Positions 2,120 through 6,527 of a stretch of 6,527 bases of DNA are shown here, piece after piece. The stretch is from Peptococcaceae bacterium BRH_c23 (GTDB lineage: Bacteria > Bacillota_B > Desulfitobacteriia > Desulfitobacteriales > Desulfitobacteriaceae): contig LADV01000085.1 in NCBI GenBank assembly GCA_000961805.1, positions 1 to 6,527 on the forward strand, read 5' to 3'. The first letter of the stretch is position 1; every line of letters starts with the position of its first letter. Made by a program: the position numbers and the translations under genes. The notes beneath the pieces were generated by a model. The model was not told where the DNA came from. It made no database searches and saw only the letters and a list, made by a program, of their open reading frames with translations.

Positions 2120-2138
2120 ATCGCAGGGTTTGCAGGAA

Positions 2139-2272
2139 TGCTCGGGTCGGAAAAGGCCTCCGAAGTTCGTCTTCGGGGGTCGTCTTTTCCTCCCTCGGGG
2201 AGTGGTACTTCCCGCAATTTGTCGAATCCCTTCGGGGGTTGACTATGTAACTTAATGTAGTTGTGTTACATT
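2139..2272 (+). repeat. Interspersed repeat, copy A (fullest copy)
   Basis: This copy carries every block seen in the others. It starts TGCTCGGGTCGG, then a long hairpin (2149-2190): outer arms GGAAAAG/CTTTTCC, inner 9-bp arms 2157-2165/2171-2179, loop TTCGT. A small stem CTCCC-TCG-GGGAG follows, then TGGTACTTCCCGC, a hairpin around AATCCCTTCGGGGGTT with a TTCG loop, and a conserved tail ending TGTGTTACATT. Positions 2203-2272 match 2791-2860 at 65 of 70 bases, and 2139-2190 closely matches 5195-5246. No open frame is conserved between copies, so it looks like a structured non-coding repeat (REP- or MITE-like). Confidence 0.85.
2149..2190 (+). other. Conserved bulged hairpin of the repeat (copy A)
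   Basis: Outer arms 2149-2155 and 2184-2190 pair over 7 bp; inner arms 2157-2165 and 2171-2179 pair over 9 bp (one T-G); the right side carries a TCGT bulge. The same fold occurs at 5205-5246. There the pair 2160C-2176G is replaced by 5216T-5232A, a compensatory change, while the loop TTCGT is unchanged. It is not followed by a T-run, so it is not a standard terminator. Confidence 0.75.
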
Positions 2273-2548: not shown

Positions 2549-2610
2549 GCTCGGTCGGGGACCGCTCGGTCGGGGACTGGTACTTCCCGAATATTGTCGA
2601 ATCCCTTTTA
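2549..2610 (+). repeat. Interspersed repeat, copy B (partial)
   Basis: It begins with the 13-mer GCTCGGTCGGGGA repeated at 2549-2561 and 2564-2576, the same 13-mer that opens the shared block of copy C at 2777-2789. It continues into TGGTACTTCCCG, differs from copies A and C for four bases, then rejoins at TTGTCGAATCCCTTT. Similarity is lost after about 2610, so the 3' hairpin and the TGTTACATT tail are missing. The 5' bulged hairpin is also absent. Confidence 0.75.
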
Positions 2611-2702: not shown

Positions 2703-2759
2703 ATGTTATTGCCGAGGAAAGCGCGTATCTGGTATCCGGGGGCTAATTATCATATCATG
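2703..2759 (+). pseudogene. REP-associated tyrosine transposase (RAYT, Y1_Tnp) remnant
   Basis: From the ATG at 2703 the first residues read MLLPRKARIWYPGANYHIM, which fits the very characteristic N-terminus of RAYT/Y1 (HUH-type) transposases, usually MPRKAR-WYPGA-YHI followed by an RGN motif. RAYT proteins nick single-stranded DNA and are thought to mobilise REP palindromes. Here the match stops at 2759, before the RGN, HUH and catalytic tyrosine regions, and the sequence passes at once into repeat-like DNA (TGCTCGCCTCGCGG, then repeat copy C). A GGAGAGGGG Shine-Dalgarno site at 2691-2699 still stands in front of the ATG, supporting a former gene start. The open frame runs on to 2843 with unrelated residues. 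Family assignment rests on 19 residues but the motif is distinctive. Confidence 0.7.
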
Positions 2760-2776
2760 CTCGCCTCGCGGTTCCC

Positions 2777-2860
2777 GCTCGGTCGGGGACTGGTACTTCC
2801 CGCAATTTGTCGAATCCCTTTAGGGGTCGACTATGTTACATAATGTAGTTGTGTTACATT
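2777..2860 (+). repeat. Interspersed repeat, copy C (3' two-thirds)
   Basis: The block opens with GCTCGGTCGGGGA and runs through TGGTACTTCCCGC to the tail TGTGTTACATT. Positions 2791-2860 differ from copy A by only five substitutions and no indels over 70 bases. The hairpin TCGAATCCC-TTTA-GGGGTCGA is kept here with a changed loop. The left limit is unclear: the preceding TGCTCGCCTCGCGGTTCCC (2758-2776) resembles the TGCTCGG end of copies A and D but lacks the long hairpin. Confidence 0.85.
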
Positions 2861-2978: not shown

Positions 2979-3854
2979 TTGGAAACGGAGATCAGCGGTC
3001 ATAATAACGATATCATTATGAAGGCCACTGCAGCGATGTTCAAGGACAAGACGCTAGAGGTGTTCGGGCTTAAGACTGCAAAGATTGTGGACATCATGCC
3101 TACGGTCTTACCTGTAGTCGAGGCCAAAGAGAAGAGAGTAGATTTTGTCTTCCTCTTAGAAGACGATACTCTTCTCCACTTGGAATTCCAGACCACAGTC
3201 CCAGAGGACCTCCTGCGGCGAGTTGCCTACTACGGGGCTAGAATAGTAGAAAGACACAACTTGGAGGTCAACACCGCCGTAATATATTCAGGTCGAATAG
3301 AAAGTGCTCCCGAACTACTGGAAAAAGGATCGCTATGCTACAGAGTCACCAATGTCTTTCTCAAGAGCATGGACGGCGATGCAGAATATAATAGGATAAG
3401 GACCCTGCTTGAGGAAGGACGGGAATTAGAAGAAGCAGATCTATGGAAACTGATCCTTCTGCCCTTAATGAAGAGTCAACAATCCGAAGCGGAGATGACC
3501 ATTAAAGCAGCGCAATTGGCCAAATCAGCCAATTCCAAATTAACTGACTTTGTCATAGGATCAATCATTGCCATTACTGACAAATTCTTACCCGAAGAAT
3601 ATAAGAAAAAATTACTGGAGGTGTTAAGCATGACCCAGATTGAAGAATGGATAAGAGAAGAAGGCAAGATAGAAGGTAAGATAGAAGGCAAGATAGAAGG
3701 TAAGATAGAAGGAATCTTGGAAGGCGAAGCAAAAGGTAAGCTGGAGGCAGCACGAAACGCATTGAAAAAGGGATTGTCATTAGAAGACATTGCCGAGATA
3801 ACTGATCTGCCCCTAGAAACCGTACAGAAGCTCAAAGCAGAACGGTCAAACTGA
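2979..3854 (+). CDS. Rpn/YhgA-family PD-(D/E)XK nuclease-like protein
   Basis: The 291-residue protein belongs to the Rpn family (recombination-promoting nuclease / putative transposase). The nuclease fold is seen in DFVFLLEDDTLLHLEFQT, where D55, E69 and Q71 form the D-ExQ type active site, followed by AYYGARI (84-90) and TAVIYSG (99-105). Family members cut DNA and stimulate recA-independent recombination; the cellular role is unsettled. The start is TTG at 2979 with GGTAGGTG 8 bases upstream; the next in-frame ATG (3018) has no RBS and would cut into the family's usual N-terminus. Residues 229-244 are GKIE repeated four times, a charged segment likely to be helical, then ALKKGLSLEDIAEITDLPLETVQKLK (261-286), an HTH-like tail common in this family. 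It is monocistronic, downstream of a RAYT remnant and upstream of palindromes. No inactivating change is seen. Confidence 0.85.
   Translation: METEISGHNNDIIMKATAAMFKDKTLEVFGLKTAKIVDIMPTVLPVVEAKEKRVDFVFLLEDDTLLHLEFQTTVPEDLLRRVAYYGARIVERHNLEVNTAVIYSGRIESAPELLEKGSLCYRVTNVFLKSMDGDAEYNRIRTLLEEGRELEEADLWKLILLPLMKSQQSEAEMTIKAAQLAKSANSKLTDFVIGSIIAITDKFLPEEYKKKLLEVLSMTQIEEWIREEGKIEGKIEGKIEGKIEGILEGEAKGKLEAARNALKKGLSLEDIAEITDLPLETVQKLKAERSN
3663..3710 (+). repeat. In-frame 12-bp tandem repeat in the Rpn gene
   Basis: Four units of GGYAAGATAGAA encode GKIE-GKIE-GKIE-GKIE. The third base alternates C, T, C, T, so the true unit is an exact 24-bp duplication (3663-3686 and 3687-3710), flanked by degenerate units up to 3746. 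Copy-number change would lengthen or shorten the segment by 4 or 8 residues without shifting the frame. Confidence 0.9.
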
Positions 3855-3997
3855 GTTCTGCTCAGTTCTGCTCGGGTCTACTCCCGGGGTCTGACCGAGC
3901 GCCATGCTCGGCACAATCCCTCCCGTCCGGTCCGGTCGGAATTGTGTCGGTTGCGCCTTGCTAAGCTCAAGGAGCAAGGGGACCGGTGCCTGACACC
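3851..3997. repeat. Cluster of palindromes (REP-like) after the Rpn gene
   Basis: Hairpins in order: CTGAG/CTCAG at 3851-3865, overlapping the Rpn stop; GCTCGGGTC (3870-3878) with GACCGAGC (3893-3900), one bulged G; 3908-3920 with 3938-3950, about 12 pairs with one mismatch; CCTTGCT (3956-3962) with AGCAAGG (3973-3979); and GGTGCCTGACACC (3985-3997). The 12-mer CCCTCCCGTCCG at 3918-3929 recurs at 5160-5171 beside repeat copy D, tying this cluster to the repeat family. None has a T-run, though the first ones could still slow transcription leaving the Rpn gene. Positions 3998-4093 contain only a CTAGT/ACTAG hairpin at 4012-4025. Confidence 0.6.
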
Positions 3998-4093
3998 AAC
4001 TTATTGTTTAGCTAGTGAAAACTAGTGTTCGATGTTGTAGGTACGAGAAGTATAGGTACATTGAATCCGTGGGTGCTGTGTGTTACTCAGGGG

Positions 4094-4645
4094 TTAGATT
4101 TTGTTAGTTAGGTATTCATAGTAAGTTCCAGGGCGTACCACCTCTACATTACCGAATGTCTTGGGAAAGTCATCAACGTTCGCTGTTAAAAGGATATTGC
4201 AATCGTGTTCCAGCGCGCCAAACATTACATGGATGTCGCAGGGATCAATATCCTTCAGCTTCTTACCTTCGTTGTCAAGGGCGATCAGCAGTTCCTCTTT
4301 TCGTTGACCAGTTCGCAACTGGAATAGGTGATAAAGGAAATGTCCTATTGGTTGGTTTGATTTGGTAACGTCAATCCAGAGTTGCCGACCTACCTGAATA
4401 CGTTCGATGTTTTCAAAGTTTAAGAGCGGAGCAAGGCCCTCGAAGAACAGATCAATTTCTTCCTCGGAGTAAATGGTTCCCCTCATACCCCTTCGGCAAT
4501 TTGCTATGAATTCACATACTACAACTTCAGTAATCACTGGTTCAAATAGTGTAGGGATTTGGGCCAGTTCTAGGAGCTTATAATTGATTCCGCGGGTAAG
4601 GAGCGCAGCACAAAGAACAGTTGTGTCAAATAGCACCCGATCCAT
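4094..4645 (-). CDS. PIN-domain protein, putative toxin RNase
   Basis: The 183-residue protein has the PIN fold pattern: an N-terminal strand ending in D7 (VLFDTTVLCAALL, compare the common DTNVLISAL), an acidic residue at E45 (VVVCEF), D134/D137 in DIDPCDIHVMFGAL, and a C-terminal ILLTANVDDF with D158/D159. These acidic residues normally bind the metal used to cut RNA. The ATG at 4645 is preferred over the longer frame beginning at 4690: it starts the PIN fold directly, has GGGGGA upstream, and lies one base after the TGA of the partner gene, implying translational coupling. It is the second gene of a two-gene unit behind an HTH protein, the arrangement expected of a toxin-antitoxin pair. 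The length is somewhat greater than a minimal VapC (about 130-140), so it is a PIN relative and not a classical VapC. Toxicity is inferred. Confidence 0.8.
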   Translation of the reverse strand: MDRVLFDTTVLCAALLTRGINYKLLELAQIPTLFEPVITEVVVCEFIANCRRGMRGTIYSEEEIDLFFEGLAPLLNFENIERIQVGRQLWIDVTKSNQPIGHFLYHLFQLRTGQRKEELLIALDNEGKKLKDIDPCDIHVMFGALEHDCNILLTANVDDFPKTFGNVEVVRPGTYYEYLTNKI

Positions 4646-4646
4646 T

Positions 4647-5072
4647 TCACAAGTCCCCCAGGTCGTCTTCATCAATTGGGTGCAAACCATCCCGCTTTGC
4701 CCATAGCTGTTCGAATATAGCCTCTCTCTTGGCGTCCTGTTCAGGGGTCGTCTTAAATTGGTCTGCCGGGATCCGATAGTGGCCCCCTGGAAGCTTTATC
4801 GCCTCTATTTTTTCTGCCTCAATCCAATTGATAACGGCTTGCGTAGATACACCTAATTTCTTGGCTACCTGTCCAGTCGATAACATTTCACGGTCAAGTT
4901 TAATACTATTAGCAAAGCTTTTTAACATCTCAACCTGTTCCGGATCAAATTCTAATGCAGTAACTGTAAGAAGGGATTCAAGAGATTGTCTAATCCGCTT
5001 TACCTGACCCTTTTGGACTGACTGCACCAATGCATGAAGAGCAGCTGATTTATCTTTTGCACATACTTCCAT
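4647..5072 (-). CDS. Excisionase-type HTH protein, putative antitoxin and autoregulator
   Basis: The 141-residue protein carries a clear MerR/excisionase-like winged helix at residues 63-106: MLSTGQVAKKLGVSTQAVINW forms the helix-turn-helix and LPGGHYRIP the wing. The N-terminal 60 residues are helical and may dimerise. The C-terminal 35 residues are charged, ending EDDLGDL, and would be the natural toxin-binding segment. In known systems of this type (an excisionase-fold antitoxin with a PIN toxin), the first gene both neutralises the toxin and represses the shared promoter; that role is inferred here from order and spacing. The ATG at 5072 has a strong AGGAGGT 8 bases upstream and a recognisable promoter. 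It could alternatively be a regulator of a degraded mobile element, but the one-base gap to the PIN gene favours a dedicated pair. Confidence 0.8.
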   Translation of the reverse strand: MEVCAKDKSAALHALVQSVQKGQVKRIRQSLESLLTVTALEFDPEQVEMLKSFANSIKLDREMLSTGQVAKKLGVSTQAVINWIEAEKIEAIKLPGGHYRIPADQFKTTPEQDAKREAIFEQLWAKRDGLHPIDEDDLGDL

Positions 5073-5122: not shown

Positions 5123-5204
5123 TAACAACAATAATAGCAAAAATTAGAACGAAGGAAAGCCCTCCCGTCCGTTAACTATACTAAGATGCTAATATGCTCG
5201 GGTC

Positions 5205-5246
5205 GGAAAAGGCCTTCGAAGTTCGTCTTCGAGGGTCATCTTTTCC
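5205..5246 (+). other. Conserved bulged hairpin of the repeat (copy D)
   Basis: Arms 5205-5211/5240-5246 and 5213-5221/5227-5235 pair as in copy A, with the TTCGT loop unchanged and the bulge TCAT in place of TCGT. The 5216T-5232A pair replaces C-G of copy A, which supports selection on the fold or at least folding-dependent maintenance. Confidence 0.7.
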
Positions 5247-5258
5247 TCCCAAAGGGGA

Positions 5259-5264
5259 CTGGTA
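5259..5264 (+). other. Predicted IBS1 of the group II intron target
   Basis: CTGGTA is the last six bases of the repeat before the intron. It is perfectly complementary to TACCAG at 5496-5501 within the intron, and ends exactly at the point where copy D diverges from the uninterrupted copies. Confidence 0.6.
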
Positions 5265-5371
5265 TTGCGTCAGGATAAGTCTGGTAAAGGGGAATGCCAG
5301 TGGGCTAAAACCTTTAGAAGGAACCTAGCAGGGCGGAAGTGACCTGCCCGGTAAAGTCTGGTCAACAGCCG

Positions 5372-5421
5372 GAAGCGAGTCTTGCAGAAGCGAGTCTTGC
5401 ATACTAAGAAGCGATTCTTGG
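5372..5421 (+). repeat. Tandem 15-mer within intron domain I
   Basis: GAAGCGAGTCTTGCA occurs twice without a gap (5372-5386, 5387-5401). A third diverged copy, GAAGCGATTCTTGG at 5408-5421, forms the loop side of a GNRA-capped hairpin. This looks like a duplicated stem-loop unit within the ribozyme. Confidence 0.75.
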
Positions 5422-5495
5422 TGTGAAGCGTAGACAGCAAGTGCAAAAGCTGTGTGATTGAGCCTCGAAAACCTTTTCGTTGGAGCTTTTGTTTT

Positions 5496-5501
5496 TACCA
5501 G
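5496..5501 (+). other. Predicted EBS1 of the group II intron
   Basis: TACCAG lies in a loop of roughly 12-14 bases closed by GCTTTT (5485-5490) and AGGAGC (5505-5510). An apical loop in domain I is where EBS1 normally sits. It pairs over six bases with CTGGTA immediately before the proposed intron start. A companion EBS2 is not convincing: CCTTT at 5472-5476 could pair with AAAGG at 5251-5255. Confidence 0.55.
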
Positions 5502-5865
5502 ATCAGGAGCAGTACAAGGGTACTTTATAGACCTGGTGCCGTTGTCCGACCGGGGTCGAAGAGCAGAGCAAATGCACAAGAGGTTCCCCAGGAACCTGAG
5601 AGAAACTGTTAAAGTCCATCTTAAGTGTCCGGTGGGGATACGGGATAACAACTCCAGGCTTTTCATTGTTGTTCTCAGTCATGGAAAGAGCGAAAAATGA
5701 GAATAGAAGATGGTACTGCCAAGCGAAGGAAACGAAGTGCGGCGGGATGCGATAACAGTAGTCGTAGTGTCGTCATAGTACCAATGAAGTAGGAGAACTC
5801 ACCCGAGAGGATCCTATAGAGGGAAGGGCGTGCACCTTATTATGGGATCGTTGGGAGGAAACACC

Positions 5866-6527
5866 ATGAATACATCGGAATTCAGTTCGGTGTCAACGAA
5901 ACAGCAACGAATAGCACAATTGGCGAAGCAGTCATCAGAGATGGTATTCACATCGCTAGCCTATCACATGGATATCGAATGGCTCGAAGAAGCCTATAGG
6001 CGAACCAAGAAAAATGGAGCCGCAGGAATAGACGGAGTAACAGCTAAGGAATACGAAGCTAACTTGCCAGAGAACCTTAAGGGTCTCTTGGAGAGGGCTA
6101 AGTCTGGGCGTTATAAAGCTCCACCTGTTAAAAGAGCCTACATTCCAAAGGGAGACGGAAAAGGAGAGTTGAGGCCAATCGGCATACCCACTTTAGAAGA
6201 TAAAGTACTTCAGAGGGCGGTATGTATGCTAATGGAGCCTATCTACGAGCAAGACTTCAAGAATAGTTCGTTTGGGTTCCGTCCGGGACGGTCTCAGCAC
6301 CAAGCACTTAGTGTCATAAGGAATGAAATCATGGGGATGAACGGCGGCTGGATCTTGGATGTCGATATTCGAAAATATTTTGATACCATCGAACATGGGC
6401 AAATACAAGCGATGCTTCGACAACGGGTTAATGATGGAGTCATTACAAGGCTTATAGGAAAGTGGCTAAATGCAGGAATACAAGAGAAGGGTCAACTTAG
6501 TTACCCAGAATCTGGATCCCCTCAGGG
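5866..6527 (+). CDS. ltrA: Group II intron-encoded reverse transcriptase/maturase (3' end outside window)
   Basis: This protein binds its intron RNA, helps it splice (maturase) and copies it into DNA at the new site. The first 220 residues are visible. Motifs in order: GAAGIDG (51-57), PPVKRAYIPKGDGKGELRPI (86-105), GIPTLEDKVLQRAV (106-119, RT-2), FGFRPGRSQHQAL (136-148), LDVDIRKYFDTIEH (164-177, RT-3, with the first catalytic aspartate D167), and GSPQ at the cut end (RT-4). The YxDD motif, the thumb/X domain and any endonuclease domain would follow outside the window. ATG at 5866 has GGGAGG seven bases upstream. The frame is uninterrupted so far, so the element may be functional. The frame is open at 6527 and would continue; the gene symbol is used for family naming only. 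Confidence 0.93.
   Translation, partial: MNTSEFSSVSTKQQRIAQLAKQSSEMVFTSLAYHMDIEWLEEAYRRTKKNGAAGIDGVTAKEYEANLPENLKGLLERAKSGRYKAPPVKRAYIPKGDGKGELRPIGIPTLEDKVLQRAVCMLMEPIYEQDFKNSSFGFRPGRSQHQALSVIRNEIMGMNGGWILDVDIRKYFDTIEHGQIQAMLRQRVNDGVITRLIGKWLNAGIQEKGQLSYPESGSPQ

Follow-up and report, generated by a model that had tools for sequence, protein, structure and literature searches.

Positions 5265-6527 of the window (the whole stretch of 6,527 nucleotides from Peptococcaceae bacterium BRH_c23 that was analysed) very probably belong to a mobile group II intron, of which they form the 5' part and which entered the core of a REP-like palindromic repeat of the Desulfitobacteriaceae by reverse splicing. 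The features that make up this arrangement are as follows.

2138..2235, plus strand: repeat copy A, uninterrupted, with GTGGTA at the IBS1 place
2562..2608, plus strand: repeat copy B (core form), uninterrupted, holding CTGGTA followed by C
2709..2759, plus strand: what is left of the beginning of a gene for a Y1 (RAYT-like) transposase, situated between repeat copies B and C (17 residues with 76%, E 2.3e-4)
2775..2821, plus strand: repeat copy C (core form), uninterrupted, holding CTGGTA followed by C
5194..5264, plus strand: 5' part of repeat copy D, cut by the intron (71 aligned bases, 90% identical to those of copy A)
5259..5264, plus strand: IBS1 (CTGGTA), the six final bases of the 5' exon, pairing with EBS1
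5265..6527, plus strand: 5' part of the group II intron, starting with TTGCG and running beyond the window (Rfam RF02005; 88% DNA identity to the relative L001 over 1281 bases)
5496..5501, plus strand: EBS1 (TACCAG), occurring once in the window and covarying with IBS1 in relatives
5558, plus strand: likely EBS3, base G; in 14 of 15 relatives its homologue can pair with the base that opens the 3' exon
5866..6525, plus strand: first part of the reverse transcriptase/maturase gene carried by the intron, with a frame that stays open as far as the window reaches (RVT_1, TIGR04416)

The interrupted repeat and the intron

The repeat core TGGTACTTCCCG is found at positions 2203, 2578 and 2791 in copies A, B and C, respectively, and is followed by CAATT in copies A and C and by AATAT in copy B. 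In copy D the likeness to copy A stops at 5264, and from 5265 onwards the sequence reads TTGCGTCAGG. The coordinates given in the preliminary description of this DNA are right, with the single correction that copy A differs from copies B, C and D in the first base of the IBS1 place and so reads GTGGTA rather than CTGGTA. The predicted fold of copy A has a z-score of -5.2 and that of copy C of -2.3.

The window also contains other elements. On the minus strand, positions 67-2119 encode an IS66 transposase and TnpB, the latter without profile positions 1 to 11 (its PF05717 match covers 12-100 of 101) exactly where copy A starts, and the IS66/TnpB element looks as if it was cut at this repeat copy. 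An Rpn-family nuclease/transposase is encoded at 2979-3854 (TIGR01784, 55.4 bits, cut-off 52.1), and a tandem repeat of 12 bases lies close to its end, while overlapping frames at 4094-5072 resemble a PIN-like protein (a weak match, below the cut-off) and a helix-turn-helix protein, perhaps together a toxin-antitoxin pair. The sequence GGGGACCGGTGCCTGACACCAAC, located at about 3975-4005, also directly adjoins an intron fragment in genome G016 (L052) and is perhaps a third repeat family.

The presence of group II domain I is confirmed by the Rfam covariance model RF02005 (group-II-D1D4-6), which matches positions 5353-5565 with 110.8 bits (gathering threshold 49, E 1.7e-31). Within domain I AAGCGAGTCTTGC occurs twice (at 5373 and 5388, spanning 5373-5400), compared with once in the L001 intron, and no EBS2 was found by eye. 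The reverse transcriptase (RT) frame extends over 220 residues without a stop and matches RVT_1 above the cut-off (4.3e-15). It also matches TIGR04416 (4.2e-60) with 203.7 bits, a score that stays under the cut-off of 300 for whole proteins since no more than 220 residues fall in the window; the full-length RT of a relative passes this cut-off with 336.3 bits. In the 455-residue protein of the relative GIIM is matched weakly (14.5 bits against a cut-off of 23), and no endonuclease domain was found at E values up to 0.1. The window ends inside the intron, and domains V and VI are identified in L001, an intron of 2012 nucleotides, by RF00029 (45.7 bits, gathering threshold 40).

The window intron starts with UUGCG and departs from the consensus ends GUGYG..AY. 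Since UUGCG starts occur in the literature, as for plant introns (PMC6867995) and for a fungal mitochondrial intron with ends UUGCG..GGU (PMC12308204), they are a known variant, and group II membership is not excluded by such a start.

Among 46 loci drawn from a collection of species genomes the nearest relative is L001 from Desulfosporosinus fructosivorans 63.6F, with an RT that is 89% identical. The intron part of the window is matched in 8 of 45 genomes of its family, and six metagenome proteins are 90-94% identical to the window RT over the full query. Two plasmid records match, at 68% and 72%. The phages gave no match, and the viral contigs contained no exact repeat core, no exact junction and no stretch fitting the RT patterns.

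Pairing of the intron with its target

The hexamer TACCAG at 5496-5501, the reverse complement of CTGGTA, lies inside the Rfam match and pairs at six of six positions with the last bases of the 5' exon. For comparison, a complement within 5491-5510 exists for 18 of 4200 hexamers of the window, and a complement within 5265-5565 for 274 of 4200.

The pairing covaries in other introns. In a set of 21 introns, most of which are from phyla other than that of the window, a 50-base EBS1 region was searched for a perfect complement of the six bases that end the 5' exon. One is present for the cognate exon in 16 of 21 introns, with 12 different pairs, versus 11 of 410 combinations with the exons of other introns, where the rows are partly non-independent (L005, L007 and L008 represent one site, L017 and L021 have the same IBS1, and both G003 copies are included) and L003 is represented by the first of its two candidate 5' ends. 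When G-U pairs are allowed the counts become 19 of 21 for cognate and 92 of 410 for non-cognate exons; L002 and L003 have no match in either form, and the match in L012 is out of register (offset 4, versus 20-26 in the others). Dropped before the count were L009, L018, L019 and L020, for which a TTGCG, GTGCG or TTGTG 5' end was not found or not sought, and the relics L048, L052 and L058, in which the 5' exon or EBS1 is absent; L022-L046 are left out as well. The introns L005, L007 and L008 belong to three phylum-level groups and have the common insertion site TATTCTGTTGAAA/GTGCG (here and below, a slash in a target marks the insertion point).

Within the family seven 5' junctions are readable (the window, two in G001, three in G003 and one in G027), all of which start with TTGCG. 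EBS1 is kept in five of the seven, and matches the local exon in all five, with four different combinations of IBS1 and EBS1: CTGGTA with TACCAG in the window, TTCTTA with TAAGAA in G001, TTCTGA with TCAGAA in two G003 copies and CCAATA with TATTGG in G027. Together with the Rfam match, these junctions and the covariation uphold the earlier reading of a group II intron inserted between 5264 and 5265 and pairing through EBS1 and IBS1. The preliminary description had also held that intron copies in targets lacking CTGGTA would speak against this reading. Such copies do exist, but in all four family copies of this kind with a readable EBS1 it matches the copy's own target, which points to retargeting rather than to refutation.

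The 3' side of the intron can be read in relatives, of which the family provides nine examples, counting 3' relics: eight end in GGC, and one, a relic in G033, in GGT. At the place of G5558, 14 of 15 introns have a base that can pair with the one opening the 3' exon (13 Watson-Crick pairs and one G-U pair, the miss being L003), with 3' ends set by eye from domain VI and without a shuffled control; 11 of the 15 cases are the same T-A pair, to which the two G003 copies add G-C. As the likely EBS3, an element that in IIB introns resides in the coordination loop, G5558 predicts C as the first 3'-exon base, which is the base that an uncut repeat would supply after CTGGTA. This C follows CTGGTA in copies B and C, and GTGGTA in copy A. 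In 11 further repeat loci C likewise follows TGGTA, and the leading C of CTGGTA is present in 11 of 11; the search pattern required TGGTAC, so that only this leading C is free evidence.

In the 14 introns of which both ends were read (loci within L001-L021, with 3' ends set by eye), a U start, as at 5265 in the window, goes with a penultimate G in 8 of 8 cases and a G start with a penultimate A in 6 of 6. These end labels require four changes on the RT tree; when only branches with good support are counted, a single change is forced and one independent pair remains, and the link between first and penultimate base thus carries little statistical weight. Experiments to which PMC4238363 and PMC3669008 refer have shown a contact between these two bases, and the U/G and G/A combinations represent this known contact, here seen as natural variation.

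Filled, empty and relic sites in repeat families

Copy A has matches in 28 of 45 genomes of the family, at up to 12 places per genome (G036). The repeat is interspersed, palindromic and multicopy, as expected for REP elements, of which a GTAG-type tetranucleotide at the foot of the hairpin is a further feature. In G036 seven repeat places lie on one strand within about 11 kb (5106922-5118242), around a Y1 transposase gene (5113817-5114350), and in G041 a repeat copy adjoins Y1 fragments on one contig. Among 120 scanned loci and the window, a Y1 match is present in only L065, L157 and the window, and in G012, G034 and G039 there is no Y1 match on any contig with a listed copy of the repeat. Counted by genome, Y1 matches (E up to 1e-20) occur in 19 of 28 genomes with the repeat versus 6 of 17 without (Fisher p 0.06). 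Given this mixed association, the label REP-like is preferred to REP. The cluster in G036 (L157, C1:5103000-5122999) also holds a MazF-like toxin gene and others amid the seven same-strand copies. An integron attC array was considered in view of such clustered repeats among accessory genes, and was rejected: no attC motif was seen by eye, and a Y1 transposase is present in one cluster.

The proposal that a multicopy repeat serves as an intron home is supported for the relative G003, with a different repeat, since there intron copies occupy one position of another repeat family of which empty copies remain. Two G003 introns, on contigs C60 (1008 nucleotides) and C12 (1258 nucleotides), both internally deleted, break a second palindromic repeat, ..GGGGTCTGACCCC..ACACAA..ATTCTGA/CAA, at the same position. 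The joined flanks of the C60 intron (77 bases) match two uninterrupted G003 copies across the junction (C63:271243-271316 with 89%, and C63:264978-265043 with 86%). The second repeat occurs at ten places in G003, three of which are flanks of the two introns; the seven others comprise four with ATTCTGA/CAA and the three variants ATTCAGA/CAA, ATTCTGA/ACA and ATTCTGG/CAA. On C60 the same repeat flank also comes after a 3' relic, and C38 contains a 5' relic at another target, CCTTGA. Y1 genes or fragments of them accompany the second repeat on contigs C60 and C63 of G003 and on C32 of G028.

It is quite possible, though not the reading preferred here, that the window intron is a single chance insertion, the repeats being common and dispensable DNA with no particular tie to the intron. 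The window provides the one known filled copy of its repeat, which is present at none of the six other 5' junctions of the family. The G001 site is not repeated either: when joined it finds only its own two halves, next to four other matches with E > 2, and the two G001 junctions have GTCnCATTATTCTTA in common. The sites in general do not stand out by structure upstream, with a mean z-score of -0.59 (n=21) versus -0.43 for the control (n=18; p 0.92). Chance is harder to reconcile with G003, where the same position of one repeat family holds two introns and a 3' relic, and with G016, which contains an intron fragment with the G003-type EBS1 TCAGAA and holds one copy of that same repeat with the site intact. 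The flank comparison also led to rejection of hairpin-guided targeting, as in class C introns, as a general rule, because the window copy has a strong upstream hairpin with a z-score of -2.95, yet the mean of the 21 flanks does not differ from that of the control.

Repeated retrohoming could be dispensed with if filled repeats had been multiplied as DNA, by duplication or gene conversion of the repeat together with its intron. Repeats can recombine, and around the joined site the two filled G003 copies share 89% identity across 81 bases of repeat, but they differ further out and in their internal deletions. Because of these differences copying as DNA is less likely in G003, where gene conversion is nevertheless conceivable, and as a general explanation it is improbable. 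The notion that the junction 5264/5265 is an assembly join of two repeated elements can hardly be maintained: both partners are repetitive and in G001 the end of a contig cuts off one intron copy, but the window EBS1 fits the repeat bases at the junction exactly and differs from the EBS1 of the nearest relatives.

Mechanism and relation to known systems

Insertion by reverse splicing, the preferred reading, most likely proceeded by retrohoming of a ribonucleoprotein of intron RNA and RT, in line with the lack of a detectable endonuclease domain in the protein of the relative. This particle would insert into the repeat DNA, perhaps when a replication fork exposes it as a single strand, and would recognise its target by pairing of EBS1 with the six bases of IBS1 and probably also of EBS3 with one base, IBS3. 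The insertion point would then lie between CTGGTA and an expected CTTCCCG, and beyond the intron the repeat is expected to resume with CTTCCCGCAATTTGTCGAAT. Through changes in EBS1, lineages may pass from one repeat family to another.

Group II introns at REPs are already in print, as are introns starting with UUGCG. In Pseudomonas putida KT2440 group II introns are tabulated as REP-associated in 2 of 9 copies (PMC1525189), an association as observed here but in another host and, in the passage concerned, given without pairing or junction data. The intron UHB.I2, described in PMC7923331 as a CL1/IIB1 intron beside an attC site with ends UUGCG..GU, resembles the window intron in its UUGCG start, a penultimate G (..GC in the relatives of the window intron), the lack of an endonuclease domain and an adjoining repeated palindromic site; its target, unlike that of the window intron, is an integron attC site, and the likeness to CL1/IIB1 is one of intron ends. 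Class C (IIC) introns insert after terminators and attC sites (passages in PMC4424553 and PMC7923331). They share with the window copy a hairpin upstream of the site, whereas their IBS1 pairing, as described there, covers 3-4 bases instead of six, and the 21-flank set shows no general preference for structured flanks. The TeI introns of Thermosynechococcus elongatus, according to PMC2882425, form families with different EBS that diverged during spread into other mobile elements, as seen here, but their targets are introns and insertion elements rather than small palindromic repeats. A non-exhaustive search of open-access literature for group II introns in connection with REP, RAYT or Desulfosporosinus yielded no further relevant paper.

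The window intron is ordinary in kind, and it is its link with the repeats that deserves a survey. This link joins two mobile systems, a retroelement with an RNA-pairing target of about seven bases, and palindromes that are thought to be multiplied by another enzyme. Tentatively, and with considerable reserve since the link with Y1 genes is weak, it may be proposed that a group II intron lineage of the Desulfitobacteriaceae lives largely in the REP families of its hosts, switching between them by changes in EBS1 and EBS3. If so, palindromes spread by RAYTs would offer this lineage renewable and harmless homing sites. If changes in EBS1 indeed move lineages between repeat families, genomes like G003, with their empty, filled and relic sites, would constitute a natural record of retargeting.
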